Part shown: positions 1 to 36,050 of the stretch, one piece after another
How the letters are laid out: the number at the start of each line of letters is the position of its first letter
Position numbering within the stretch: the first letter of the stretch is position 1
Source: a virus
Strand: one strand, 5' to 3'
Length of the DNA stretch: 41,356 bases
Virus record (IMG/VR): IMGVR_UViG_3300044742_000333
Coordinates: 1 to 41,356 of that record
Program-made: the position numbers and the translations under genes
The notes under the pieces: generated by a model
What the model saw: the letters and a program-made list of their open reading frames with translations, nothing else
What the model was told of the DNA's origin: nothing
Database searches by the model: none

Positions 1-55
1 ACAGGGTCAGGAATAACTACGATGACGACGTCATCGTAGTTATTCCTGACCCTGT
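1..55. repeat. Perfect terminal palindrome (27-bp arms)
   Basis: Bases 1-27 are the exact reverse complement of 29-55, around a single central base (28, a). The core reads TGACGACGTCA. It is the very start of the window, so it may be the read-through of a covalently closed hairpin end or a fold-back artefact of assembly or amplification. I recognise no protelomerase in the window, and the sequence alone does not choose between these. Confidence 0.9.
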
Positions 56-2214: not shown

Positions 2215-2540
2215 TGGGCGCGCGGATGTACGCGGAACGTGAGGCCGACCGGCTCGTGCTGGGCGACAAGGTATGGGTGGTACGTGGCGTCCTCGTCAGA
2301 GAGGGCGAAGTCGTCGCGGTGCAGACGTATGAACTCGCCACGTTGCATCCGAGTTATCGCGTCAACGCGAACGGCTATACGTGGACAGAGAATCGCACCG
2401 ACCTCTACCGCCGGCCGGCGGAGTTGGAAGAACTCGTCGCGCGGTTGGAGGACGACCTTGAGTATTTCACGGCCACCGTGGAGGACTTTCAACAGCAGCT
2501 CATAGATCAGCAGGACCGCGAGCAGGAAGCCACGCGATGA
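2214..2540 (+). CDS. Early protein with C-terminal coiled coil
   Basis: 108 aa. The ATG overlaps the upstream TGA (TGATG) and has AGGAGG upstream. The N-terminal half is strand-rich (DKVWVVRGVLVREGEVVAV); residues about 65-105 are a charged heptad-like helix (ELEELVARLEDDLEYF onward) consistent with a coiled coil. No family recognised. Translationally coupled to the genes on both sides. Confidence 0.6.
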   Translation: MGARMYAEREADRLVLGDKVWVVRGVLVREGEVVAVQTYELATLHPSYRVNANGYTWTENRTDLYRRPAELEELVARLEDDLEYFTATVEDFQQQLIDQQDREQEATR

Positions 2541-3247
2541 CCACGAGCACCCCGACGCAACCGCCGATTGAGCTACTCGCCGCGAAAGCGAGGTCGCGCG
2601 GCGTCACGGCCGAGCAGCTCGACGCGTTCTTTCGCAACGTCCGGCAGCGCGACGACGGCTGCTGGCAGTGGATGGGCCCGATCAACAACAACGGCCTGCC
2701 GCTGTTCACTGAATGCCCCGAGGGGCGTCCAGGGCGGTTGCCGGTCAAACAGCCCATGGGCCACCGCACGGCGTGGTGGTGGTTCCGGGGACGCCTCTAT
2801 CGCTACCCCTACGCCAAGCTGCTCCAGACGTGCGGCCATAAGGCCTGCGTCAACCCCATGCACCTCCAGCAGAAGCTCGTGCGCGAGGCCAAGCCGGTCG
2901 AGCTGCATACCGACACGTTCACGGCGATCTTCAGTCGCATCGAACGGGTGCCGATGCCGCCGAGCGACGACGACGAGTTGGTGGGCCCCTGCTGGCGATG
3001 GACGGGCGACGTCAACGTCAGCGGGTACCCGACGCTCGAAATGATCGGCCATCCGCGAGCACTCGACGTCCTGGTGTTCGCGTGGTTTGGGACGTACCTC
3101 GCCGGCCAATCGGAAGCCACCCATTTGCCGTTGCATCACTGCGAGGTGCGCGCGTGCCTGAACCCCGCGCACATGCGACTCGTCCCCGCCGCCGACCGCC
3201 AAGCGCTGGCGGGCCGTCTGCGGCACAAATTAGCGGAGGCTAAATGA
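2537..3247 (+). CDS. Tandem HNH-type endonuclease-like protein
   Basis: 236 aa, starting with an ATGA overlap. It contains two copies of an HNH module of the phage type: first CWQWMGPINNNG ... HRTAWWWFRG ... CGHKACVNPMHL, then CWRWTGDVNVSGY ... LHHCEVRACLNPAHM. The second copy keeps a His-His-Cys block; the first reads LLQTC there and has lost the histidine. This looks like an internal duplication with one possibly degenerate nuclease unit. Likely role: DNA nicking or cleavage, either selfish or linked to replication/packaging. It sits in the early overlapping operon rather than between structural genes. Confidence 0.75.
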   Translation: MTTSTPTQPPIELLAAKARSRGVTAEQLDAFFRNVRQRDDGCWQWMGPINNNGLPLFTECPEGRPGRLPVKQPMGHRTAWWWFRGRLYRYPYAKLLQTCGHKACVNPMHLQQKLVREAKPVELHTDTFTAIFSRIERVPMPPSDDDELVGPCWRWTGDVNVSGYPTLEMIGHPRALDVLVFAWFGTYLAGQSEATHLPLHHCEVRACLNPAHMRLVPAADRQALAGRLRHKLAEAK

Positions 3248-4047: not shown

Positions 4048-4662
4048 TTACGGCGTGGGACTCTGGCCCCACGCCAGCGGCTCGATGTCCGTGATCGGCG
4101 GCGGTCCCGGCAGCTCCAGATTCGCGGCCACGCGCAACAGCAGATCGGTGGACTGCGTCCCGACCCACACCATGCCCACGACATCGCCGTGCCGCCGCGC
4201 CAACTCCGCGCAGAGGACGAGATGCTCCAATGCGTCCTCGTCCGTCTCTCCCGGCCCGTCCAACCCCACGACCAACACCGCGTGCGCGAGCGGGCAGAAC
4301 TCCAAGCCGGCGTCGTAGCGCGTGACGGCGGCGGGGATCGTCTCGTCCGGTCGGCGCGTACACCGCAGCCACCACTGGTCCCCATACTGCGTGGCCGGCG
4401 TGGCCGACAGATCCCATTCGGCGCTATCGGTCCAGATCGCAAGCGGGCGCTTGAGACGGCGGGCGGTCGCGCGCGAGGCCTCCATCACGGTGCGGAGCGT
4501 ATGCTCACGCGGCTGGCCGTCTTCCCAGGTGATCGGCTGCGCTTCGCACCAGACCGCGATGAGCTGCTGCGGCGACACCTCGTCGGTACGGTCAGCGGGT
4601 AGCACGACCGGCGACGGGCCGACGCCCGCGAGCGCGAGGTTGATCAGCGTCTCGGTGCCCAT
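4048..4662 (-). CDS. Unknown protein, 204 aa
   Basis: The ATG at 4662 overlaps the HNH stop (TGATG), so it is translationally coupled to the gene above it. The product is mixed alpha/beta, with segments such as HAVLVVGLDGPGETDEDALEHLVLC and GDVVGMVWVGTQSTDLLLRV, but no motif I can assign. Being last in a minus-strand operon headed by a small basic protein, DUF1064 and HNH genes suggests a nucleic-acid-related or accessory function. No function is claimed. Confidence 0.65.
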   Translation of the reverse strand: MGTETLINLALAGVGPSPVVLPADRTDEVSPQQLIAVWCEAQPITWEDGQPREHTLRTVMEASRATARRLKRPLAIWTDSAEWDLSATPATQYGDQWWLRCTRRPDETIPAAVTRYDAGLEFCPLAHAVLVVGLDGPGETDEDALEHLVLCAELARRHGDVVGMVWVGTQSTDLLLRVAANLELPGPPPITDIEPLAWGQSPTP

Positions 4663-5459
4663 CAGACCGCTGGCCCTAGGTATGGGACCGCCTCGCACGT
4701 CGCCTGACGCTCGTTCAATAAGTCGGTCATCAACTCTGAAACGATACGCCGCTGCTCCATGAAAAGCACGGCACGCGCTAATCCGAGGACGCCGTGCTTG
4801 GCGAAGAGCCAGTCCGCGACATCCTTACTGCCCTTGCTCCAGTTGCATTGCCTGCAGCAAGGCATGAAGTTGTCTTTTTCCGCTGCGCCACCATGCACGA
4901 CAGGCTCAATGTGATCGAGGACGAGGTCACTTGTTGGCAGGCCGCAGTAGATGCATAGGCCCTTAGCTTTCTTGATCAGGTTGGTCGCGAAGTTGGTCGA
5001 GATCTTCTCTGGTGCCGCTGAGCGCCGAAGGATGTCGTTGATCCTGTGTCGGCGACGGTATTTCTTGGCATTCTGGCGAGCCCGTGCGTTGAGCCGCTCT
5101 CGATTGTCCTCCCGCCATGCGTTCAAATTAAACGGCGTCCGCTCGCGCTTGTTCATGCATTCACGCGAACAGAATCGTCGGTTCTGTTTTGCTTGGCAGG
5201 GGAAGACTTGGAATGTGCGGTGGCACGTCTCGCATTCCAACGATACCTTGACGCTCACGCGTGGCGGCTTCGGCGGTTTCACAGGAGTTCGACGCATCCG
5301 CGCGATGATCGCGCACTTGGCGGAACAGTAACCCTTTCGCTGTTTCGCCTCACTCTGCCGCCAGACGCGCGTCGTGCCGCATTCTGGACATGTCAACTGG
5401 ATGCGCGGTGCGCGGGGAACACATCGCCGAAATCCAGCCTTTGGTATGCCATAGGGCAT
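4662..5459 (-). CDS. HNH endonuclease with two Cys4 zinc motifs
   Basis: 265 aa from the ATG at 5459, which has GGAGGT 8 nt upstream. Two zinc-finger-like units come first (CPECG...YCSAKC and CETCH...RFCSREC), then a basic linker, then an HNH core (CIYCG, LVLDHIEPVVHGG, CCRQCNWSKGSKD). Homing-type HNH proteins of this layout are common in phages. The coding sequence is visibly less GC-rich than its neighbours, which suits recent acquisition. Lies between the DUF1064 gene and an unknown gene without disrupting either. Confidence 0.85.
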   Translation of the reverse strand: MPYGIPKAGFRRCVPRAPRIQLTCPECGTTRVWRQSEAKQRKGYCSAKCAIIARMRRTPVKPPKPPRVSVKVSLECETCHRTFQVFPCQAKQNRRFCSRECMNKRERTPFNLNAWREDNRERLNARARQNAKKYRRRHRINDILRRSAAPEKISTNFATNLIKKAKGLCIYCGLPTSDLVLDHIEPVVHGGAAEKDNFMPCCRQCNWSKGSKDVADWLFAKHGVLGLARAVLFMEQRRIVSELMTDLLNERQATCEAVPYLGPAV

Positions 5460-5463
5460 TGGA

Positions 5464-5892
5464 CTAGACCTCCACCACGAGCAGTCCGTACTCAGCCTCA
5501 AAGATGCGCTTTCTGAGTTGGTAGGCCTCGGTCTTCGTCACGCCGACTTTCACGTCTTCAATACGCATGACCCCGGCTTCCCGATATTGGAAGTCGGGTT
5601 TGTACGTGCCAATCTGCAATTTGTCGCCGGAAGGCGTCACGGCATGGAGGCCGTAACAGGGATGCGGGATCAAGTCCGTAATGATCCCGCCCTTCTCCAA
5701 CAGCCGCAGTTCCTGCCAACGGGCCGCTTCCTTTTTCGAGTCGAAAAGATACCCGTCGAGTTCCGTCTTCGTGTTCCTGTACTTGGCGCGCGTTGGTGTG
5801 GGGGCGACTGCCGCCGCCATCCGGGCGGGCGATGCGCGGAACCGCGCGAGGTACTCGGCGTATTGCGCGTCGGTCATGCGGTCGAGGCTCAC
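5464..5892 (-). CDS. DUF1064-family predicted nuclease
   Basis: 142 aa from a GTG at 5892 that overlaps the upstream TGA (GTGA); an ATG at 5877 is the alternative. The body matches DUF1064: KYRNTKTELDGYLFDSKKEA, then YKPDFQYRE and MRIEDVKVG. The E...D...ExK pattern is that of the PD-(D/E)xK fold. In phages these proteins are usually annotated as endonuclease-like, often near replication/recombination genes. Role here: probable structure-specific or recombination nuclease. Confidence 0.75.
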   Translation of the reverse strand: MSLDRMTDAQYAEYLARFRASPARMAAAVAPTPTRAKYRNTKTELDGYLFDSKKEAARWQELRLLEKGGIITDLIPHPCYGLHAVTPSGDKLQIGTYKPDFQYREAGVMRIEDVKVGVTKTEAYQLRKRIFEAEYGLLVVEV

Positions 5893-6050
5893 GGCTGCAC
5901 GTCCTTGTCGCGCGGACGTTTCTGCCGGCGCTTCTTCCGGCGTTGCGCCACGAGTTTCAGTGCGGCCATGCGGCGATCTTCCGTCGAGACATTCGCCCAC
6001 CGACGTCGGCCGAGGGCCTGGGCGGCGGCATTGAGTTCCGGTTTTGCCAT
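5889..6050 (-). CDS. Small basic protein heading the DUF1064 operon
   Basis: 53 aa, too short for many gene callers. It starts at the ATG at 6050 and overlaps the next gene by 4 nt. N-terminus MAKPELNAAAQALGRRRWAN, then a very basic tail (AQRRKKRRQKRPRDKD). No Shine-Dalgarno is visible; the -10 box ends six bases before the ATG, so translation is probably leaderless. Likely a DNA/RNA-binding accessory protein; family unknown. Confidence 0.65.
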   Translation of the reverse strand: MAKPELNAAAQALGRRRWANVSTEDRRMAALKLVAQRRKKRRQKRPRDKDVQP

Positions 6051-25927: not shown

Positions 25928-26121
25928 CAAGCAGACTCGCGCGTCGGCGTGGCTCCCCGGCGCGTCGGATATTTTGCTTCGGTGATCAGGTCGCCACTCG
26001 GGCGGCGAAGGGGCGCATCGCGCTGACAGGACTCGCAGCGATGGCCGTCGGTCGTGCGGCAGACGTCGCCGAGGCACTCGCCGGGAGTGTGACAGTCCAC
26101 GCATTGGAAGACGTGGCTCAT
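25927..26121 (-). CDS. Small cysteine-rich protein, 64 aa
   Basis: ATG at 26121 overlaps the portal stop (TGATG), and its own stop overlaps the next ATG, so it is coupled on both sides. Cysteines are arranged as CVDC, ECLGDVC and CESC, suggesting one or two bound zinc ions. Basic C-terminal tail. Function unknown; possibly an assembly factor. Confidence 0.55.
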   Translation of the reverse strand: MSHVFQCVDCHTPGECLGDVCRTTDGHRCESCQRDAPLRRPSGDLITEAKYPTRRGATPTRESA

Positions 26122-28238
26122 CACATCGTCCTGCCGGAATTGTTCTGGAGATTGCCGGTGAGCCGCGTGTCGTGCTTGTCCACGGGCTCGATCCCCTGCG
26201 GGGCCTTGATTAGTTCCGGGGCCAGCGTGGGCGGCGGCGGCAGTTCTAACCCATACATCTTGGAGAGATAGAGCCTAACCCCCTCATAATTCGGCGACAT
26301 CGGGTTCAGATCATCCCCGCGCATTGAGAACGTCGCCTTGGGCGGTTCTGGTTTCGCGGGCTCCGGTTGCTTAATCAGCGGCACCCTGTCCTGGCCGAAC
26401 GCGTCACACAAGAGCCCCGCTACTTCCATCTGGTTGAAGTACGGATTGTTGCTGACGAGGTTGACGAACCGCAGCATCTTCTCGCGTTCCTGCGAGGCAT
26501 CGACGCGCACGCTGCTGTCGGGATTGAAGGTGAAGAGGTAGTCGCCCGCAATCGTCGTGCGGTCCCATTGCGCGAACCGCTTCGCGCCGTCCTCGCCGAC
26601 GATCTCGACCAGTTCCTGATCGGTCGCGAAGAGCTGCACGAGACTGAACAGTTTCTTGCAGCCGCGCGCGTACTGCGTCAGCAACCGCACGCGTTCTTTC
26701 GCCTGCCGCGTTTCGGTGGCGCGCTGGATCAGGCTCGCTTCGTACGCGGTGTCGGTGTCATCGGATCCGAGGCCCTGCTGGTTCGCGCCACTCGCCGTCA
26801 AGCGGTCGATGTCGTTCTGCGTGATGGCATCAAATTGGAAGTTCTCATTTGGGAAGTGCGCGACGGCGAGTGCGCGCAGATCGCTTTCACTGATGGGCCC
26901 CTCGAACTTTATTAAGCTCTGGATTTCTCCTGACTCCAACTGCTCGACCGTATCGCGCGTCAGCGCGGGGCTCTTCACGTTGATGCCGCGCATCGGCATC
27001 GAGCGCCGTCGCTGCTGCACCATCTGCGAGCGGCCCAGGCTCTTCTCGTCGGCGATGTCGCGCACCACGCTGCAGTCGCTTTTCGGGAACGCGCTGTTGA
27101 CGCGGCTGCGGAGCGTGAAGACGTGGATCGGGTAGCCGCGCATCCCGCCCGTGAACCGGCCCATGTTGTCGAAGCGTTGCCACGGCGAGTTCTCGTGGAC
27201 GACGACGCCCTGGCCGTTGCGCCCGCTCTTCTTGGCGAGCACGACGAGCCGCCGGATGCGCTCGGGATTGAGTTCCGTCGCGTCGTAGAGCGAGGCGCGA
27301 TACCAGATCTCGTAGCCGCAGGCCACGCTGCGCTTCTCGAGCGCATCGCGGTCGGCGGGGGCGACGAGCCGCTCGGACCAGTTCAGATCCGAGAACGACG
27401 ACGGCTCGACGCCATACCGCCGCACCAGTTCCTCGGTGTCCGCATAAAAGCGGAACGCCAACCACGGCGCGGCGTCAAAGCGGGAGCTGAGAAAGCCCAC
27501 CGGGGAGAGAAAGTCGTCAGGGCTGATGCGGTTCCAGTAGTAATCGCACCAGAGTTTCTGCGGGTTCGTTTCCGTTTCCGGCTGGCCGTCTGGCCCGAGC
27601 GCGAGCGTCTCTTCGTTCTGGTACCCGCCCGTCATCGGATCGATCAGCGGCTGGCCGCTCATCGGATCGAGCTTCGGCACCGAAGCGCCGGTCAGCGGAT
27701 CGGTGACCGGCTCCATGCGGCCGGTCGGCGTCTTCACGTCCTGGGTGACGCTCTCGTAGCCGATCTTCGTCACGCCGATGCCGGCGGGCACGAGGATGTC
27801 GGAGAGCACCTCGTCCATCATCGCCACGGCGTCGATCTTGTCCTCGCCCAGGAGCGTGTCCATGATCGCCTTGACGATGGGCGCGACGGGCCGCGTCTCG
27901 GGCCGCGTGCCCGCGACCTGTAAGGCAGGCTGCTGATGAAATAACTGCGGCTTCTTTTGTTCGACGGTATAGAAGCCCACGTTGACCGAAATGGTGTCGT
28001 TGACGTGGACCCCGGGCAGCGTGGGCCGGTCGCCGTCATAGCGGCTCATGTTGGCCCGCCACGCCGGGACTTCCTCCTTCAACCGGTCTACCGCCGCGTC
28101 GATCTCGGACGACCAGAACGCTTCGCTGCCGTACCCCTCGTCAGGGAGCGGGATCGTCAGGTCCGTCGCCGCCGCCGCCGCCGCCGCCGGACGCCGCGTG
28201 AGCGAAGTCCCTGTGGACTTCGCACGTCGTTTCGCCAT
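26121..28238 (-). CDS. Portal protein
   Basis: 705 aa, the size of P22-type portals. Typical features: an N-terminal helical region (WSSEIDAAVDRLKEEVPAW), EQKKPQLFHQQPALQV, a wing domain, a long C-terminal helical stem (YEASLIQRATETRQAKERVR) and a flexible proline-rich tail (EPAKPEPPKATFS). It forms the dodecameric channel for genome entry and exit. Located downstream of the terminase, as expected, and headed by a TATACT -10 box. Confidence 0.8.
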   Translation of the reverse strand: MAKRRAKSTGTSLTRRPAAAAAAATDLTIPLPDEGYGSEAFWSSEIDAAVDRLKEEVPAWRANMSRYDGDRPTLPGVHVNDTISVNVGFYTVEQKKPQLFHQQPALQVAGTRPETRPVAPIVKAIMDTLLGEDKIDAVAMMDEVLSDILVPAGIGVTKIGYESVTQDVKTPTGRMEPVTDPLTGASVPKLDPMSGQPLIDPMTGGYQNEETLALGPDGQPETETNPQKLWCDYYWNRISPDDFLSPVGFLSSRFDAAPWLAFRFYADTEELVRRYGVEPSSFSDLNWSERLVAPADRDALEKRSVACGYEIWYRASLYDATELNPERIRRLVVLAKKSGRNGQGVVVHENSPWQRFDNMGRFTGGMRGYPIHVFTLRSRVNSAFPKSDCSVVRDIADEKSLGRSQMVQQRRRSMPMRGINVKSPALTRDTVEQLESGEIQSLIKFEGPISESDLRALAVAHFPNENFQFDAITQNDIDRLTASGANQQGLGSDDTDTAYEASLIQRATETRQAKERVRLLTQYARGCKKLFSLVQLFATDQELVEIVGEDGAKRFAQWDRTTIAGDYLFTFNPDSSVRVDASQEREKMLRFVNLVSNNPYFNQMEVAGLLCDAFGQDRVPLIKQPEPAKPEPPKATFSMRGDDLNPMSPNYEGVRLYLSKMYGLELPPPPTLAPELIKAPQGIEPVDKHDTRLTGNLQNNSGRTM

Positions 28239-28444: not shown

Positions 28445-28621
28445 TTAGGAGAACCCCGCCAGATCCGCGGTGAGTTTCAGCAGTTTCCCGATGATTTCAT
28501 GCGAGCGTTGCAGGGAGGCGTTCGCCTTTTTCAGCGCGTCGATTTCCTCACCTTGCGCGTCGAAGAGTTCGATTTGTAATTCGTAGAGCGTTCGCACGAT
28601 GGCGCGTTCTTTGTCCTCCAT
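28445..28621 (-). CDS. Small coiled-coil protein, 58 aa
   Basis: ATG at 28621, TAA at 28447-28445. The product is a continuous charged helix with heptad spacing (TLYELQIELFDAQGEEIDAL, then LQRSHEIIGKLLKL), so probably a coiled coil that oligomerises. It lies directly after a secreted-protein gene. No family recognised; composition and clean helical periodicity make it likely real. Confidence 0.55.
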   Translation of the reverse strand: MEDKERAIVRTLYELQIELFDAQGEEIDALKKANASLQRSHEIIGKLLKLTADLAGFS

Positions 28622-28631
28622 TTGGGTGGCC

Positions 28632-29087
28632 TTAGCTACAGACGCGGGCCGCGCCCGTGCCGATGCAGATCACGCCCGTGCCGTAGTTGATGTAGGTGCC
28701 GGACGGACTGACGGTCCACAGGTTGCCCTGGCTGTCCGTGCCGCGCTGCGAACCGTCGCGCTCGATGGTCGTGCGCCACAGGCTGCCGGTGTTGAGATTG
28801 CTGCCGCGCACGGTCGTGGTCCCCGAGGTGTCCCGGTCCCACGAGTAGCGATTGCCCGAGCGCCAGTCGTAGGTCGTGCCGGAGGTCGGCGGCGGCGGCT
28901 GGATCGGGGCGTAGGGCACGTAGACCGGGTAGGTCGGGACCGGCGGCGGCGTGTAGCGATACGGGGTGTAGACGTACGGTTCATACACGGGGGTCGGGTC
29001 GGGGCGACGGCGGGACGATTGCGCCTGGGCGACGGCCGGGACGACGAGGATCAGGGCGACGAGGGGGAGCCAACGGACACTTCTCAC
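28632..29087 (-). CDS. Secreted protein with cleavable signal peptide
   Basis: 151 aa from GTG at 29087 with GGAGG upstream; upstream alternatives fall inside the promoter at 29120-29139. N-terminal signal peptide RSVRWLPLVALILVVPAVA with an AQA cleavage site. Then a Pro/Tyr-rich segment (VYEPYVYTPYRYTPPPVP) and a Gly/Thr-rich beta domain ending in two cysteines (VICIGTGAARVC). Expected in the periplasm or outside the cell. It may modify the envelope of the lysogen or exclude other phages; function unknown. Confidence 0.65.
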   Translation of the reverse strand: MRSVRWLPLVALILVVPAVAQAQSSRRRPDPTPVYEPYVYTPYRYTPPPVPTYPVYVPYAPIQPPPPTSGTTYDWRSGNRYSWDRDTSGTTTVRGSNLNTGSLWRTTIERDGSQRGTDSQGNLWTVSPSGTYINYGTGVICIGTGAARVCS

Positions 29088-29119
29088 AGGAAACCTCCAA
29101 ACGGAAACGACAGAGGGAG

Positions 29120-29139
29120 AGTCTACCACGAGCGGTCGT
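29120..29139 (-). promoter_or_regulatory. Promoter with operator-like motif for the secreted protein
   Basis: On the minus strand ACGACCGCTCGT (29139-29128), two bases, then TAGACT (29125-29120). A leader of about 25 nt with GGAGG leads to the GTG at 29087. The motif abuts the stop codon of the terminase nuclease gene. Confidence 0.65.
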
Positions 29140-29768
29140 TAGCGTGCGGCGTAGCGCAAGCCGCGCCGGATCGCGTCGATCTCGTGCCCGATGGCGTCGG
29201 GCGGCAGCGTCTTGACGATCTTCGTCGGCGGCAGCGGACGCGCCATCACCCAGTAGCGCAGCGCCGCAGCCGGATATTCGTCGGTCGTTGAATCGATGTC
29301 ATCGGGCTGCTTCGCATCGGACACGAGCGTCAGGAACGTGTCGAGAAAGTAGACGCAGTCGGCGTGGACCTGGAGCGAGGGCGCGTCGAAGATGCGCGGC
29401 ACTTCGCGGTCGTCGTCGCGAAAGGTTCGCACGTCGAGCCACGCGCGGATCCGCGCCCAGCCGTTGACGCGGTCCTTGTCGCCCGGGGTCATGTGCAGGC
29501 CGCGCGCACGGAACGTCTCGCTCACGGTTTCGCCGCGCGCCGTTTTTGTTTTCGGAAAGATCTCCGGTTGCGCGATCACGTCGATGAGGCGCGGAATCCC
29601 CTTCTCTTTCAGGAACGCGTGGATGCGCGTGGCGGCGACATCGGGCGTCGTTTTGAAAAAGGTCATCTCATGCCGCAGGACCGCGCGCCCATCGGTCTGG
29701 ACGGCGATGAAGCCCATCCACCCTCTGGCCGCGTACGACCAGTGGAGAGCCCCGTAGTGATGAATCAC
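29139..29768 (-). CDS. terL: Terminase large subunit, detached C-terminal nuclease domain
   Basis: 209 aa from a GTG at 29768 that overlaps the previous stop (GTGA). It aligns by eye with the RNase H-like nuclease half of terminases: GALHWSYAARGWMGFIAV, RLIDVIAQPEIFPKT, TPGDKDRVNGWARIRAWL and YPAAALRYWVMARP. It has no ATPase motifs. The matching ATPase half is at 31501-32598, about 1.7 kb upstream in the same strand. At positions usually occupied by catalytic acids this protein reads H9 (ALHW for ALDW), Q67 (AQP for ADP) and A168 (PAAALRY for xxDALRY), with D163/E164 nearby. It may be an inactive or altered nuclease, or the alignment may be offset. Confidence 0.75.
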   Translation of the reverse strand: MIHHYGALHWSYAARGWMGFIAVQTDGRAVLRHEMTFFKTTPDVAATRIHAFLKEKGIPRLIDVIAQPEIFPKTKTARGETVSETFRARGLHMTPGDKDRVNGWARIRAWLDVRTFRDDDREVPRIFDAPSLQVHADCVYFLDTFLTLVSDAKQPDDIDSTTDEYPAAALRYWVMARPLPPTKIVKTLPPDAIGHEIDAIRRGLRYAAR

Positions 29769-30070
29769 TCGCCCGCCTCTGCTGCTGCTGCCAACGCTTC
29801 CCACTTTTGGAGGCACAGCGGATAGTGAACGTGGCCTCCGCGCTTGAGGAGAACGCCCATCTTGTCGAAGTCGAACGCCCCGCCACACATGATGCACCGC
29901 GAAGGAACGTATGGCGGCGGCTCCGCGATGGCACACGCCCAGTCCAACTGCTTTCGCAGCCGGTCGATCTCCGCGAGGGCGGCGTCGATGGCGGCGGCAA
30001 CATCCTCATTCCCGCCACCGCAAAGTTTGGAGAAGCTCCGAAGCGTCTCGGTGAACGGCGCGTCGGTCAT
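29765..30070 (-). CDS. Mosaic mini-gene product (MTDAPFTET leader, Cys C-terminus)
   Basis: 101 aa from ATG at 30070, ATGA overlap with the previous gene; it ends overlapping the terminase nuclease start. The first residues (MTDAPFTET) equal those of the genes at 39538 and 40798. The next block, LRSFSKLCGGGNEDVAAAID then AALAEIDRL, equals the gene at 40195. The C-terminal half is unique, with a CIMCG...C pair that may bind zinc. It is a recombinant of two right-end gene types, placed within the split terminase. Function unknown. Confidence 0.65.
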   Translation of the reverse strand: MTDAPFTETLRSFSKLCGGGNEDVAAAIDAALAEIDRLRKQLDWACAIAEPPPYVPSRCIMCGGAFDFDKMGVLLKRGGHVHYPLCLQKWEALAAAAEAGE

Positions 30071-30330
30071 GGCGTCACCCGTGACTCTATTTCGATGGTG
30101 AACGGCAACGAGGGATCGCCCGTCATCCGCAGCCGCCAGGTATCCCCGCGCACGTCGATGTAGCGCCACGTCCCATCGCTACTCTTCAACATGACATCGC
30201 GATACTCTGGCGCATCAGCCCACGCGCCAATGTGCCCAGCCGAGGCGCGGACGATGCGGCTCGTCTCCCGCAGATACTGTGTCGTCTCAGCCAAGTTCTT
30301 CAGCATCTCCTCGATGTCCGCTTGGGTCAT
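30067..30330 (-). CDS. Unknown protein led by a leaderless promoter, 87 aa
   Basis: ATG at 30330; the -10 box TAGGCT ends six bases upstream and no ribosome site is visible. N-terminal helix (DIEEMLKNLAETTQYLRET) followed by a strand-rich half (DGTWRYIDVRGDTWRLRM). No family recognised. First gene of a small cassette that reaches the terminase nuclease gene, so this promoter may also transcribe the nuclease fragment. Confidence 0.6.
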   Translation of the reverse strand: MTQADIEEMLKNLAETTQYLRETSRIVRASAGHIGAWADAPEYRDVMLKSSDGTWRYIDVRGDTWRLRMTGDPSLPFTIEIESRVTP

Positions 30331-30336
30331 GGCGTC

Positions 30337-30356
30337 AGCCTACCACGAGCGGTCGT
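30337..30356 (-). promoter_or_regulatory. Leaderless promoter with operator-like motif inside the split terminase
   Basis: Minus strand: ACGACCGCTCGT (30356-30345), two bases, TAGGCT (30342-30337), six bases, ATG (30330). Same layout as the promoters at 6057 and 39286. Confidence 0.65.
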
Positions 30357-30577
30357 CAGGACTCCCAGTGCGCGCGCGCGAAGCGCTGCGGCACTTCGAA
30401 CTCGTCGCCGCACAGGCGACAGCGATACGTGTGGCCGGCGCGCATCTGGCGCGGGCCGGTGCCGATGATCGGCAGAATGGTGACGTATTTCGTCGCGAGG
30501 GGAGCCATGGGATCGATCCAGAGATGCGCGTGTGCGGTAGACCACGAGAGGGGGTAGCGAGTCAGAGCGATAGCCAT
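30356..30577 (-). CDS. Small zinc-finger-like protein, 73 aa
   Basis: ATG at 30577 with GGAAGG upstream. The C-terminal part has CRLCG and RFARAHW, a CxxC...H pattern that could form a small zinc-binding unit. The N-terminal part is unremarkable. Lies between the HNH gene and the leaderless promoter, just behind a GGTTGGAG stem-loop. Function unknown. Confidence 0.5.
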   Translation of the reverse strand: MAIALTRYPLSWSTAHAHLWIDPMAPLATKYVTILPIIGTGPRQMRAGHTYRCRLCGDEFEVPQRFARAHWES

Positions 30578-30586
30578 GGGATCCAA

Positions 30587-30620
30587 CCTTCCATGGTCGT
30601 GGCTCCAACCCCCCCGACCG
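30587..30620 (-). other. GGTTGGAG stem-loop downstream of the HNH gene
   Basis: On the minus strand GGTCG and CGACC form a 5-bp stem, extendable by TCC/GGA across a bulge, around a loop that contains GGTTGGAGCC. It lies between the stop of the HNH gene (30644) and the ATG at 30577. Member of the recurrent stem-loop set. Confidence 0.55.
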
Positions 30621-30643
30621 GAGAAACGACGCGGGGAGACGAG

Positions 30644-31504
30644 TTATTCGAGGTACTTCTGGTTTATCGTGTCCATTGTGCAAATCATAAGATCCATGAG
30701 GCGCGGGGGCCAGTTGTGTTTCCACCCTTTGGACGCGTTACAGGGTTGGCAAGCCGCCACGATATTGCTCCTCTCGTGCCGACCGCCACGACGGATCGAC
30801 AGCCGATGATCCTGAGTGAGCGCGACGTTCGCGAAACAGTAGTAGCAGCAGCCACCTTGTGCAACTTTTGTCTCCTCCCAGTCCCGATGGGTGTAGCCGT
30901 CGCATTCCCCGCCGCGCAAGACGGCCCGACGACGACGACTCGCTTCCCTCATCACGTCAGGGTTCGCTCGCGCCCACTCCGCCTTCACGACTTTCAATAG
31001 GTCTTTGTTTTTGGCGCGATATTCGACGCCGCGTCGATAGACGCGTTCCTGGTTTGCCACGACCCAAGCGCGGGCCTTTGCGATACCTAACTCAGGATTC
31101 TTGTGATAACTCGCCTTCCTTTGGGCTTTTTCGCGTTCAGGATTAGCCTTGCGATTAGCTTTTCTGGTCACCAAAATACGCGGCTTGTTCTTGTGGTAAT
31201 AAGCCGACCCCTTCGCCGCCGCGTTTGGGTCTGCGGCATATTTCGCACGTTTTCGTTGCCGAATCCCGTCCCGGTTTCTGTGGTAACTCGCGCGTTTATT
31301 TCGGCGATGCTGCTCAGGATTTTTTGCCACCCACGCCTTGTGGTCTGCCTTGTATTTCTCTGGATTGGCTTTTCGACGCGCGAGGACAACCTCCTTGTTG
31401 GCGGCGTACCACGTCTTCGCCCGCATTTTGTACAGTTCCTTATTCGCCAGATAGTGCTGTCGCTGGTAGGCCTTCGGGTTGGCTGTTTTAATGGGAGAAC
31501 TCAT
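30644..31504 (-). CDS. HNH homing-type endonuclease inserted in the terminase gene
   Basis: 286 aa; the ATG at 31504 overlaps the ATPase-half stop (ATGA). The N-terminal 200 residues are basic helical repeats (units like YHKNPE, YAANKE, YHRNRD) that probably bind DNA; the C-terminal HNH core has CCYYCFANVALTQDHRLSI and CQPCNASKGWK. Less GC-rich than its surroundings. Its position exactly between the ATPase and nuclease halves of the terminase suggests it caused or exploited the split, as homing endonucleases in conserved phage genes do. Confidence 0.85.
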   Translation of the reverse strand: MSSPIKTANPKAYQRQHYLANKELYKMRAKTWYAANKEVVLARRKANPEKYKADHKAWVAKNPEQHRRNKRASYHRNRDGIRQRKRAKYAADPNAAAKGSAYYHKNKPRILVTRKANRKANPEREKAQRKASYHKNPELGIAKARAWVVANQERVYRRGVEYRAKNKDLLKVVKAEWARANPDVMREASRRRRAVLRGGECDGYTHRDWEETKVAQGGCCYYCFANVALTQDHRLSIRRGGRHERSNIVAACQPCNASKGWKHNWPPRLMDLMICTMDTINQKYLE

Positions 31505-32598
31505 ACGGGCTCCGCGTGCGTCACATGGATCGCAGGATCAAACGTCTCCCAAAACTGGCCCGCCATCACGGACCAGTCGCCTTCGGCTAATTGCTTGTAT
31601 CTGGGAGCCGACAATCCGGCGAGCGTCTTCTCGCGATAATCCGGGGCGAGGTACGGATTCGACGTCAACGTGCAGTTGATGAAACCGTACTCTTCGGCAC
31701 GGTATTGGGGATAGAGATCCCGATCTGGTGCCTTCTTCAAAAACATACTTACCAACCATCGGTGAGCCCTTCCTCCGGGGTTGCTCCATATGCGGGTGCA
31801 GCCTGCACGCTTCCCCATCCGTTGATAGGCGAGACGCGCGGTCGCGGATCCTCGGGCTCGCGACGACAGCTCGCTGATGGCGAGCGGCAGTAGTTGCACG
31901 CCTTCCTCCAGCGCGACCTCGTCAAACTCCTGGCCGATGTGCTGTTGGATGTCGCCAACGTCGTCGCAATAGCCCGCTTGGATCATCGCGTCGTTGTTGT
32001 CGTCGTGGTGAAACACCATCACGCGCGCTTGCGCTTTGTATGTGGCATCGCCGAGGAGCTTGGCTTCGCGCGCCATGTGGCCGAGATGGTTCCGCTCTAG
32101 TTCCGGGTAGCTTCTCCGAATCAGGAGCGATCTGAATCCTGGGATTTCCCGGCATTTTTTGTAGAGGTTCCAGCGGCATCCCACGGACTTGCTCACGCCG
32201 GCCGCGCCCGCCACGAGCAGGTTCGTGGTCGTATTTTCACCGACCTCGATTTGCAGCGGCAGCGGCAGGAACAGGATCGGCCCACTGCTCTGCCCTGCCT
32301 TCCGCATCGCCGCCGCGAGTTGGCGATCTGCACAGGCGTCCGTCGAGCAAATCCAGTGCTCCTCGCCCATCCGTCGAAACGGTTGCCCACACCAGAGGCA
32401 GCGGGCGATCTCATGCAGGTCCGGGGCTCCATGGACGGCTGGGGCCCCATTCAGCACTAGCGGCGATGGGATCGGTTCGCTGAGTGGTTGGTGCCCAGGC
32501 CGCGCTATGGGCTCGGTGTCGAGGGCAACGGCAGAGGCGGCTCCTCGTTCTCGCTCTCGCTTGGCTTTGATGGCTTTCCAGGGGATGAACTTCGCCAT
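31501..32598 (-). CDS. terL: Terminase large subunit, ATPase half
   Basis: 365 aa. N-terminal zinc-binding pattern (C67, C70, C84, C89), Walker A GAAGVSKS at 131-138 (S in place of the usual G before K), Walker B-like GQEFDEV with D226/E227, then NPGG and TSNPYLAPDYREKTL, LAEGDWSVMAGQFW, typical of terminase ATPase domains that drive packaging. The protein stops right after the motif that normally precedes the nuclease domain (FDPAIHVTHAEPV), and the nuclease continues as a separate gene at 29139-29768. It must act with that product, another nuclease, or through an RNA-level joining not evident here. Confidence 0.85.
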   Translation of the reverse strand: MAKFIPWKAIKAKRERERGAASAVALDTEPIARPGHQPLSEPIPSPLVLNGAPAVHGAPDLHEIARCLWCGQPFRRMGEEHWICSTDACADRQLAAAMRKAGQSSGPILFLPLPLQIEVGENTTTNLLVAGAAGVSKSVGCRWNLYKKCREIPGFRSLLIRRSYPELERNHLGHMAREAKLLGDATYKAQARVMVFHHDDNNDAMIQAGYCDDVGDIQQHIGQEFDEVALEEGVQLLPLAISELSSRARGSATARLAYQRMGKRAGCTRIWSNPGGRAHRWLVSMFLKKAPDRDLYPQYRAEEYGFINCTLTSNPYLAPDYREKTLAGLSAPRYKQLAEGDWSVMAGQFWETFDPAIHVTHAEPV

Positions 32599-33368
32599 TT
32601 TTCCTGCTCCTCCGCGAGCATCTCACGCCGACGTTTCGCCACCCGCTTCTTGAAATCCATCGGCGGATCAGCGACCGGTGGGGCCCACTTGGGAGCAGCT
32701 CGACGCGTGATCGGCGGCGGATCGGGTGGCACTTGGGACGGCTTGACCGGCGGCAGGTCGGCCGCGCGACGGGTAATCTCGGCCAAGAGGTCGAGCGTCT
32801 CGGTGTCGGTGTGTCGGCGCATAGGCACCTCCGGGGACGGCACGGGGCGACGTGGGCGCTGGGGACGACGTGGGGAACTCCCCCGCATTTTACGGCGATG
32901 GGCGACGACGCCGCTCAGGAGGTTGTCGAGCGTGCGGATGTCGGCCACTGTGAGCGACCGGTCGTAGACCCGAACGGCCGCGAGTTTCAGGTTGTCGCGG
33001 ATCTCGCCGTGGTCGATGGCGTGTTCCAACCCGCGATAGGCGATGGCGCGGAGCGTTTTGATGGGGTCAGCAAACGGCGTTCCCGGCTGTTCCACGCGAG
33101 AGCGTGGGGCGCGCAGCGCTGCCTTGGGGGTTTGATCTGCGGGGGGGGGATTAAGGGAACGCGCGCTGGGGGGGGCTGAAGCGTTTTTTTTCGGACAAAA
33201 AAAATTGCGCCGTTTGCCGGGGCCGGTGCGATTGCAGCGAGCCCTGGCACTGGGGGCGCGACGGTTCCGTCGGCGGGTCACCCCCGAGTTCAGGCCACCC
33301 AGGCGGGCGGCAGCGCGGCATTGGGCCGCGCGTTCCGGTGAGCCGTTTCGAACCACTTGCAAAGACAC
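32505..33368 (-). CDS. Putative terminase small subunit
   Basis: 287 aa if the GTG at 33368 is used; its start is uncertain because the GGGAGGGG site lies almost on top of it, and a GTG at 33356 or TTG at 33362 is possible. The central part is helical (DPIKTLRAIAYRGLEHAIDH; DNLKLAAVRVYDRSLTVADI), flanked by basic and Pro-rich regions. Overlaps the terminase ATPase gene by 94 nt. Assigned by position before the large subunit; no family signature is visible. Confidence 0.45.
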   Translation of the reverse strand: MSLQVVRNGSPERAAQCRAAARLGGLNSGVTRRRNRRAPSARARCNRTGPGKRRNFFCPKKNASAPPSARSLNPPPADQTPKAALRAPRSRVEQPGTPFADPIKTLRAIAYRGLEHAIDHGEIRDNLKLAAVRVYDRSLTVADIRTLDNLLSGVVAHRRKMRGSSPRRPQRPRRPVPSPEVPMRRHTDTETLDLLAEITRRAADLPPVKPSQVPPDPPPITRRAAPKWAPPVADPPMDFKKRVAKRRREMLAEEQEKWRSSSPGKPSKPSESENEEPPLPLPSTPSP

Positions 33369-33386
33369 CCCTCCCGTCAGGACAGG

Positions 33387-33600
33387 TTTCCGGCTGTTTT
33401 TTAGGACAGCTCACGCCGGAAACATGGGTTGCGTTCTCGAAAGAGGTTGATCTAGACTGGGGTCCAACCGCGCTACCCAGTCTGTTTTCGCGCTCTTTCG
33501 AAAACGACTTTTAACCGCCGCTTCAGCTTGTCCAGGCTGGGGCGGCGGTTCTGTTAAGAGGCGAGTCTAGATCCCGTTTGACTCGCCCGTCAAACTTTTT
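33387..33600 (+). other. Stack of dyads ending in a terminator; candidate small RNA
   Basis: This gap (33369-33626) holds no gene but five inverted repeats: 33387-33394/33415-33422; 33432-33445/33493-33506 (one mismatch) enclosing 33454-33461/33476-33483; 33513-33521/33542-33550; 33560-33567/33580-33587; and 33576-33582/33589-33595 followed by TTTTT. The last two overlap and exclude each other, like an antiterminator/terminator pair on the plus strand. TTGCGT (33429-33434) and TAGACT (33453-33458) could be a plus-strand promoter. Possible roles: small RNA, partition site or origin. Confidence 0.55.
33589..33600 (+). terminator. Rho-independent terminator (plus strand)
   Basis: GTTTGAC (33576-33582), loop TCGCCC, GTCAAAC (33589-33595), then TTTTT (33596-33600). 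No plus-strand gene ends here, so it would stop either a small RNA from the dyad region or read-through towards the partition genes. Confidence 0.65.
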
Positions 33601-33626: not shown

Positions 33627-33884
33627 CTATTCCGCGATCTCGGGCTCACCGTGTTTCGCGAAATAGTCGTTGAGCGCCTCGTTCACTTGCGCCTGGAGCG
33701 TCATCCCGCGCGTAATGCCCATCATCCGCAGCTTGTCCTTCACGGCGTGGGCATAAAACACCGTGAGATGCGTCTTCGTCGCGCGCCCTGGCCGGTAGTA
33801 GGGCGACTCCCCTGCCGGGGCCGGCGGCGCGGCGGCGCGGCGGATCTTCTGCAGGGCGACATCGGCCAGTTGGGGTTTAGACAT
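33627..33884 (-). CDS. Ribbon-helix-helix partition partner (ParG/ParB-like)
   Basis: 85 aa; ATG at 33884 overlaps the ParA stop by 8 nt. Flexible basic N-terminus (QLADVALQKIRRAAAPP), then a strand THLTVFYA and helices HAVKDKLRMMGITRGMTLQA onward, a ribbon-helix-helix like that of small ParG-type centromere-binding proteins paired with ParA. Expected to bind a centromere site and stimulate the ParA ATPase. Known relatives bind short ACTC boxes; repeats of that kind occur upstream of parA and at both ends of this window. Confidence 0.7.
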   Translation of the reverse strand: MSKPQLADVALQKIRRAAAPPAPAGESPYYRPGRATKTHLTVFYAHAVKDKLRMMGITRGMTLQAQVNEALNDYFAKHGEPEIAE

Positions 33885-34530
33885 GGACTCCTCCAGTGGT
33901 TGACGAGTTGGAGTTCACCAGTTCACGCATGAACTCGTACACGAGTTGCGTTTCCGCCGCCGCTTTCCCGCGTGGCTCGTACTCCAGTGCCACTTGGCCG
34001 AGGATGGTCGCGTCCGAGAAGGCCTCGCGGTTGCCGAGGCCGGTGGGGCAGACCGGGATCCCGAGCTGCTCGAGGAGGACGCTCGCATCCGCGTGCCGGG
34101 AGCCCCGCGCCGAGACGGCGTTGAGCACGGCGGCGACCGACCGCGTGCCGGTGCTGCGGATTAGCTCAAGCGTCGTGGCGACCGTCTCGAGGTCGAAGAG
34201 TTTGGTGCGGCAGGGGATGAGCACCAGTTCCGACACGCGCGCGGCTGCCAAGGCCGCCTGTTCCGCCCGAGGCGGCGTGTCGATGATGGCGAGATCGACG
34301 CCGGCCTCGGCGGCGGTCTTCAGGGTCTGGGGCAGGCGCGCGGCCAGGGTGGGAATGACGTGCGGCGGGTGGCCGTGCCGCCGGTCGCCCCACGCCGCCG
34401 CCGTGGCCTGACTGTCCACGTCGATGATGACGACGTTCTGGCCCGCCTGCATCGCCGCCACCGCCAACGAGAGCGCCAGCGTGGTCTTGCCCGATCCGCC
34501 TTTTTGAGTGATCACGGTCACGATATGCAT
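33877..34530 (-). CDS. parA: ParA-family partition ATPase
   Basis: 217 aa, the short form without an N-terminal DNA-binding domain (type Ib). Deviant Walker A KGGSGKTT at 10-17 with the signature lysine K10, Walker A' VVIIDVDSQA, and Walker B AIIDTPP around D84. Such ATPases partition low-copy plasmids together with a small DNA-binding partner, here the downstream RHH gene. In a phage this points to an extrachromosomal prophage. ATG at 34530 with GAGAGG upstream. Confidence 0.88.
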   Translation of the reverse strand: MHIVTVITQKGGSGKTTLALSLAVAAMQAGQNVVIIDVDSQATAAAWGDRRHGHPPHVIPTLAARLPQTLKTAAEAGVDLAIIDTPPRAEQAALAAARVSELVLIPCRTKLFDLETVATTLELIRSTGTRSVAAVLNAVSARGSRHADASVLLEQLGIPVCPTGLGNREAFSDATILGQVALEYEPRGKAAAETQLVYEFMRELVNSNSSTTGGVHV

Positions 34531-35273: not shown

Positions 35274-36050
35274 ATGGCTACACAAAAGCATCTCACGCCT
35301 GAAGAACGAGACGAACTTCGCGCATACAACCGCGCATGGCGGGACCAGCACCGGGATGAAATTAACCGTCGTGCTAGAGAACGGCGTGCCTCGCATCCAG
35401 AAAAAGCGCGAGCACTTGATAAAAAAAAGCGAGAGCGACCGAACGATATTGCCCGCCGGAAAGGTTGGCGGCAGCGACATCCTGGGAAACAGAAGTCGTA
35501 TGCCGCCAGATACAACTCATCAGAAAAAGGGAAAAGTCGCCGCACGAAGCAGCAAACGAAAAATCGCCAGTATCTGAACAACAAGCAGAGAAACTGGCGC
35601 GATGCAAATCCCGAGAAGGTGAAAGAAGGAAACAAGCAGCAGTGGTCAAAACATCGCGACAAAAATATAGAAAGAAAAGCCAAGAAACGGGCCTCAAACA
35701 TTGCCGCCGCTCGAGCTTATGAGCGAGATTGGTCGCGCCGAAGATGGCACGGAAACGCCAACTACAGAGAGTCGAAACTTCATCGTGCGCGACGGCATCG
35801 CGCTAATAGGACTGGTCCTCACCCGCTCTTCTCTAAACAGGACAAGGCGGAGATTTTCGCGAGCGGCTGCTGTTTTTACTGTGGTGTATCAGGAGTAGAA
35901 CTCACCGAGGACCATGTGGTTGCACTAACGAAGGGTGGAGCGGACTCGAAAGAGAACATCGTCGCAGCTTGCAGGTCATGCAACTCTTCGAAGCGCGCGA
36001 AGCCCCTAGAGGCGTGGCTTGCCAGCGGGGGTAGAATTAAGCGCAATTAA
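35274..36050 (+). CDS. HNH homing-type endonuclease
   Basis: 258 aa. Basic helical repeat region (units such as NRAWRDQHRDE, NWRDANPEK) followed by an HNH core CCFYCGVSGVELTEDHVVAL and CRSCNSSKRAK. Same architecture as the terminase-inserted HNH gene (30644-31504). Clearly AT-richer, with A-runs, than the surrounding genes, pointing to recent acquisition. The leader has a CGGTCG/CGACCG hairpin just before the ATG. Together with the two genes before it, it lies between 19-nt direct repeats. Confidence 0.85.
   Translation: MATQKHLTPEERDELRAYNRAWRDQHRDEINRRARERRASHPEKARALDKKKRERPNDIARRKGWRQRHPGKQKSYAARYNSSEKGKSRRTKQQTKNRQYLNNKQRNWRDANPEKVKEGNKQQWSKHRDKNIERKAKKRASNIAAARAYERDWSRRRWHGNANYRESKLHRARRHRANRTGPHPLFSKQDKAEIFASGCCFYCGVSGVELTEDHVVALTKGGADSKENIVAACRSCNSSKRAKPLEAWLASGGRIKRN

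Follow-up and report, generated by a model that had tools for sequence, protein, structure and literature searches.

The IMG/VR virus record IMGVR_UViG_3300044742_000333, analyzed here over its whole length of 41,356 bases (hereafter the window), carries on its minus strand two separate genes corresponding to the two domains of the terminase large subunit (TerL): an ATPase half of 365 residues (31501-32598) and a nuclease half of 209 residues with a GTG start (29139-29768). We estimate, with a probability of about two in three, that this TerL functions permanently as two polypeptides, a motor ATPase and a conserved pseudonuclease subunit. This reading is drawn from sequence comparisons of the two halves with intact TerLs and with three related viral contigs, G001/L002, G002/L016 and L028 (a 7.3-kb fragment), which together with the window represent a small group of uncultured tailed phages.

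The two genes together correspond to one TerL

Twelve intact TerLs from phage and viral records served to build a TerL profile; most of this set is from phage records, L029, L031 and L032 being viral contigs. When run against the six-frame translation of the window, this profile matched the ATPase half (E=1.2e-40) and the nuclease half (E=1.2e-29). No further significant match was found in the window, G001 or G002. By hhalign, the ATPase half aligned with columns 15-260 of the intact-TerL profile (99.9% probability) and the nuclease half with columns 271-440 (99.6% probability). Since the two segments are adjacent and do not overlap, the break falls in an inter-domain linker of about 10 residues, and both domains are present. 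Used separately as tblastn queries, the two halves also reached intact phage TerLs, the best E value for the nuclease half being about 3e-10. These results bear out the preliminary description of the locus, made by reading the sequence, which had proposed separate ATPase and nuclease genes and had named a full terminase elsewhere as an observation that would overturn its proposal; in the window, none was found by the profile search.

The ATPase half matched PHROG 979, terminase large subunit (E=1.6e-17). Its motifs are GAAGVSKS (Walker A), ALEE (Walker B and catalytic Glu) and SNPGG (motif III), preceded by an N-terminal extension of about 107 residues with a CxxC...C...C zinc-finger-like stretch, and the protein ends in GDWSVMAGQFWETFDPAIHVTHAEPV immediately before the stop codon. 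For the nuclease half, no family match was obtained in Pfam, PHROGs or NCBIfam, and a PDB sequence search with profiles of both halves gave no meaningful match. Its assignment as an RNase H-like TerL nuclease domain is one of homology at the sequence level, the structure model being poor. Of the features expected of a TerL, the locus thus shows the P-loop ATPase motifs and homology to the nuclease domain; the catalytic Asp triad and the single polypeptide are missing.

The nuclease half has lost its catalytic residues and is conserved

The four split members were aligned with 14 intact TerLs to compare the catalytic columns. All 14 intact proteins have Asp at the first catalytic position, where the split clade has H, H, H and R. 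At the second, Asp occurs in 12 of the 14 and Gln in every split member, and the third is Asp in 13 (Glu in the remaining one) and A, A, A and M in the split clade. The conserved His preceding the third position is replaced by Tyr in 4/4. In the window, the residues at these sites are H9, Q67 and A168, with Y165 for the conserved His. The corresponding residues of the G20c TerL nuclease, D294, D347 and D429, were reported to be indispensable (PMC5389553). A working conventional nuclease, as the second half had initially been taken to be, is contradicted by the loss of all three metal-binding Asp positions in all four contigs. On the ATPase side, the motifs are kept in 4/4: Lys-Ser in Walker A, the acidic Walker B pair with the catalytic Glu, and Asn-Pro in motif III.

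The ratio of nonsynonymous to synonymous substitution rates (dN/dS) of the nuclease half was 0.051 (window-L002), 0.136 (window-L016) and 0.147 (L002-L016). The corresponding values for the portal gene were 0.156, 0.232 and 0.225, so that the nuclease half was lower in each pair; pairs with L028 were too diverged for a reliable dS. A C-terminal stretch, LPPDAIGH, situated past the nuclease domain, is invariant in the four split members and could be a docking arm. Because its dN/dS of 0.05-0.15 lies below that of the portal, the nuclease half does not appear to be decaying and is best described as a putative conserved pseudonuclease under strong purifying selection.

We considered the possibility that the two halves reassemble and still cut DNA, the nuclease using an altered site (made, for example, of E34, D137, D156/D157 and E164). 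Many acidic residues are conserved over a range of 47-98% identity, the low dN/dS is compatible with a retained activity, and split enzymes that reassemble are known, as exemplified by Aeh1 NrdA and phage 25 gp43 (PMC2988022). Yet, the positions replaced are precisely the three shown to be indispensable in a TerL nuclease (PMC5389553), the first of them varies inside the clade, and Q67, in place of the second Asp, is expected to be a poor ligand for a catalytic metal. Continued cutting by the reassembled halves appears improbable to us.

The split is shared by relatives, while the gap between the halves varies

On the minus strand, the order of the genes is the ATPase half, a free-standing, homing-endonuclease-like HNH endonuclease gene (286 residues, 30644-31504), a zinc-ribbon-like open reading frame (ORF; 30356-30586), an 87-residue ORF (30067-30330), a 101-residue ORF (29765-30070) and the nuclease half. 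The closest relative, L002, shares 92% identity with the window in the portal and 98% in the nuclease half, the values for L016 being 77% and 86%. L028 is more distant (about 43% in the ATPase and 47% in the nuclease half). In all three, TerL is split at the same position as in the window, and separate stops and starts are present in 4/4 contigs. A profile search of genome contigs with the nuclease half found no relative.

The gap between the halves measures about 1.7 kb in the window and about 0.7, 0.26 and 0.45 kb in L002, L016 and L028, respectively. In L002 it holds the zinc-ribbon ORF and two other small ORFs. In L016 the zinc-ribbon ORF stands alone and is directly followed by the ATG of the nuclease half, and in L028 there are two unrelated small ORFs with start/stop overlaps. 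The zinc-ribbon ORF of the window is 75% identical to that of L002 and 64% identical to that of L016, the motif YRCRxCGDE being common to them. No HNH gene lies between the halves in L002, L016 or L028. Because the relatives are split at the same place and differ in their gap genes, the split is, judging from these sequences, most likely ancestral to the clade with variable gap contents, and the HNH gene most likely a later arrival in the lineage of the window. The start/stop overlaps, the three further split contigs and the low dN/dS uphold the earlier view that the halves are adapted to separate translation and do not result from a fresh disruption. They do not support a four-gene insert as the cause of the split, since the relatives are split with different or fewer gap genes and without an HNH gene. 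Sequencing error and a fresh pseudogene were ruled out by the four contigs and by the dN/dS values.

An alternative is that insertion of the HNH homing endonuclease gene itself split the terminase, as documented for nrdA/mobE of Aeromonas phage Aeh1 (PMC2988022). As in the present locus, an essential enzyme is encoded there by two genes with an HNH gene between them, and the HNH ORF of the window abuts the ATPase stop through an ATGA overlap, much like mobE over nrdA. Furthermore, L002 and L016 have, after the ATPase stop, a short tail (MNPxYxE followed by a stop) resembling the C-terminus (QKYLE) of the HNH protein of the window, which could be the scar of a lost HNH gene. All three relatives might have lost a founding HNH gene, but this would not be the simplest reading. 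In Aeh1, however, the gene is split by the HNH insertion itself and the enzyme remains active, whereas here the split is most likely older and one half is devoid of catalytic residues. An HNH gene is found at the break in the window only, and the HNH-free relatives are split at the same place, L028 coming close to a deeper relative free of any trace of it. Moreover, the ATPase core that adjoins the HNH gene is itself diverged and apparently imported. We consider an HNH-driven split to be quite unlikely.

Somewhat less probable still is a scenario in which the nuclease half is decaying as a remnant and the ATPase works alone. Its catalytic residues are gone and its gene is unlinked from the ATPase, but the reading frame is intact in four contigs, the protein is 86-98% identical to those of the two closest relatives with a dN/dS below that of the portal, and the LPPDAIGH stretch that follows the nuclease domain is conserved. 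Finally, restoration of a single polypeptide by an intron or a split intein is very improbable: an HNH gene beside a gene break is a usual feature of group I introns, introns split terL in Jug phages (PMC12363816) and terL inteins occur in Mic1 (PMC7156551) and phiJA1 (PMC3670811), but an intron was ruled out by Rfam searches without any match (a permissive local search at E<=1 and the whole window at the gathering threshold) and by gap DNA differing in content and length among the four split contigs, a split intein was ruled out by the junction anatomy (the TerL linker is where one half stops and the other starts, which leaves no additional residues and no room for an intein), and both halves possess starts and stops of their own, mostly overlapping.

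A proposed two-polypeptide packaging motor

In the two-polypeptide terminase that we favor, the N-terminal half would be the DNA-translocating ATPase and the C-terminal half an RNase H-like pseudonuclease without metal-binding Asp, kept by purifying selection. The latter would bind the ATPase ring, the portal and/or DNA in trans and serve motor assembly or regulation, a role suggested earlier for the vestigial nuclease domain of phi29 gp16. Genome ends would have to be made by another enzyme or by replication, which is the least certain part of the proposal. Once the halves were unlinked, the gap, whose content is seen to differ between contigs, may have become a landing site for small genes, and that of the window may have gained its free-standing HNH gene along with the diverged ATPase core now found beside it.

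Several points speak against this proposal. The clade is known from four contigs: one is a 7-kb fragment, and genes at the ends may be missing from the other three, which are near-complete. When modeled by AlphaFold with four-row alignments, both halves scored poorly, with a mean predicted local distance difference test score (pLDDT) of 36, and neither the fold nor a contact between the halves is supported by structure. E34, D137, D156, D157 and E164 are invariant, which is compatible with an unconventional active site, and the role in trans beside the ATPase is deduced from conservation and gene context.

The closest functional parallel may be phi29 gp16, the C-terminal domain of which is a vestigial nuclease still binding DNA; this phage packages unit-length DNA, and the authors tied the nuclease loss to packaging of a unit-length genome (PMC7672431). 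Common to both is a packaging ATPase with an RNase H-like domain that has been kept despite the loss of its catalytic residues. In contrast to the present system, with its separate, full-size gene and its P22-type portal, gp16 is one polypeptide with a reduced C-terminal domain. Tentatively, the split clade may have evolved a non-cutting motor, ATPase and dead nuclease acting as two proteins on linear unit-length genomes in a lineage unrelated to phi29; terminase cleavage would no longer be needed because the genome ends would already be fixed. No Rfam match to a packaging RNA (pRNA) was obtained in the whole window at the gathering threshold. Neither a protein-primed (type B) polymerase nor a terminal protein was recognized among the main ORFs scanned, terminal proteins being hard to recognize.

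Canonical two-domain TerLs (PHROG 979; for example, L005, L009, L014 and L031) have homologous halves in the same order upstream of the portal, but the two are joined in one polypeptide and the Asp triad is intact. In herpesviruses, UL15 consists of two exons flanking other genes, and mRNA splicing leads to one active protein. The ATPase and nuclease parts are set apart by unrelated genes in UL15 as in the window, but they are spliced together. The terL of Jug phages likewise comprises two or more ORFs, which are joined by RNA splicing (PMC12363816), unlike the present locus, in which no intron was found. Among the open-licence papers searched, we found no report of a two-polypeptide TerL operating without splicing, a result that does not prove that none exists.

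Few proteins of tailed phages are as universal as TerL, the RNase H nuclease domain of which has been described as universal in Caudovirales (PMC7824862). In a clade with a separate motor and a nuclease fold free of its active site, the cutting role would be set apart from structural and regulatory roles. With such a clade, one can directly test which functions the nuclease domain has apart from cutting, and whether cleavage is lost when genome ends are preformed, as proposed for phi29. It suggests a packaging machine that has stopped cutting its own genome.

Genome ends, other nucleases and neighboring genes

The window, G001 and G002 are collinear almost from end to end. The right ends of the window (41210-41356) and of G001 (39391-39474) lie 147 and 84 bp, respectively, from the start of a shared 43-bp block. 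This shared position fits fixed ends, though a cos-type phage would look similar; that the genome ends are preformed or hairpin ends is a hypothesis. The left ends showed no significant similarity, and terminal repeats were not found. A perfect 27-bp inverted repeat with a 1-nucleotide center occupies the extreme left end of the window (1-55). It could be a hairpin genome end or an assembly fold-back, and it was not found in G001 or G002. TTGTCAA/TTGACAA occurs near both ends of the window and of G001 in inverted orientation, a weak observation made post hoc.

Two nucleases are conserved in the window, G001 and G002, an HNH-type protein (2537-3247) and a DUF1064/resolvase-like protein (5464-6000), and either could supply a cut. 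The portal gene (26121-28238) lies beyond the nuclease half, with two small ORFs in between. On the other side, a 287-residue ORF (32505-33368) extends in a different frame over the start of the ATPase gene; it is conserved in part in G001 (59%) and weakly in G002, gave no family match, and is possibly a small terminase or an overlapping gene. A ParA-like ATPase gene beside a ribbon-helix-helix gene (33627-34530) points to a partition cassette and perhaps to the lifestyle of a phage-plasmid. Among the ORFs scanned, none was recognized as an integrase or replication gene.

Junctions and gap genes of the window

The coordinates first given for the ORFs of the split terminase were all correct on re-examination. 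Four-base start/stop overlaps occur at three junctions: ATGA between the ATPase stop and the HNH start (31504-31501), ATGA between the 87- and 101-residue ORFs, and GTGA between the 101-residue ORF and the nuclease half. The zinc-ribbon-like ORF encodes 76 residues from a TTG (an ATG is at 30577), has orthologues in L002 and L016, and matched zinc-ribbon families weakly, below the cut-off. The 87-residue ORF occurs in the window only, with no homologue in G001 or G002 and no significant family match in Pfam or PHROG. An exact 16-bp repeat, CGACCGCTCGTGGTAG, is present on the minus strand just upstream of this ORF (30340-30355) and just downstream of the stop of the nuclease half (29123-29138). 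The promoter previously ascribed to the cassette formed by the 87- and 101-residue ORFs was not recovered: a sigma-70 scan of 28500-33600 found one site, against 1.0 expected, and this site is located elsewhere.

Remodeling of the locus in the lineage of the window

From residue 117 onward, the ATPase core of the window is 57% identical to that of L002 and 59% to that of L016, whereas L002 and L016 share 79%. The portal and the nuclease half show the reverse pattern, the window and L002 being the closest. The ATPase core within 31501-32598 is thus a sharp recombination mosaic relative to its flanks (portal 92%, nuclease half 98%). This divergence against the flanking pattern indicates that the diverged core probably entered with, or next to, the HNH gene, and gene conversion around a homing endonuclease would be its natural explanation. 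The HNH protein matched Pfam HNH_5/HNH above the cut-off and a PHROG HNH family, and G+C falls locally to 0.53 over its gene.

The genome is rich in homing-type endonucleases. Other HNH-type genes are found at 35274-36050, 4662-5501 and 2537-3247, the first two being related to the one in the terminase gap. At the right end of the window, 39311-41201 contains an array of short mosaic ORFs sharing N-termini (MTDAPFTET, MSDW) and a segment, AIDAALAEIDRL. A mosaic relative of these ORFs sits between the terminase halves, namely the 101-residue ORF, which is 78% identical over 36 residues to 40192-40293 and has N-terminal similarity to the ORFs at 39529 and 40789.

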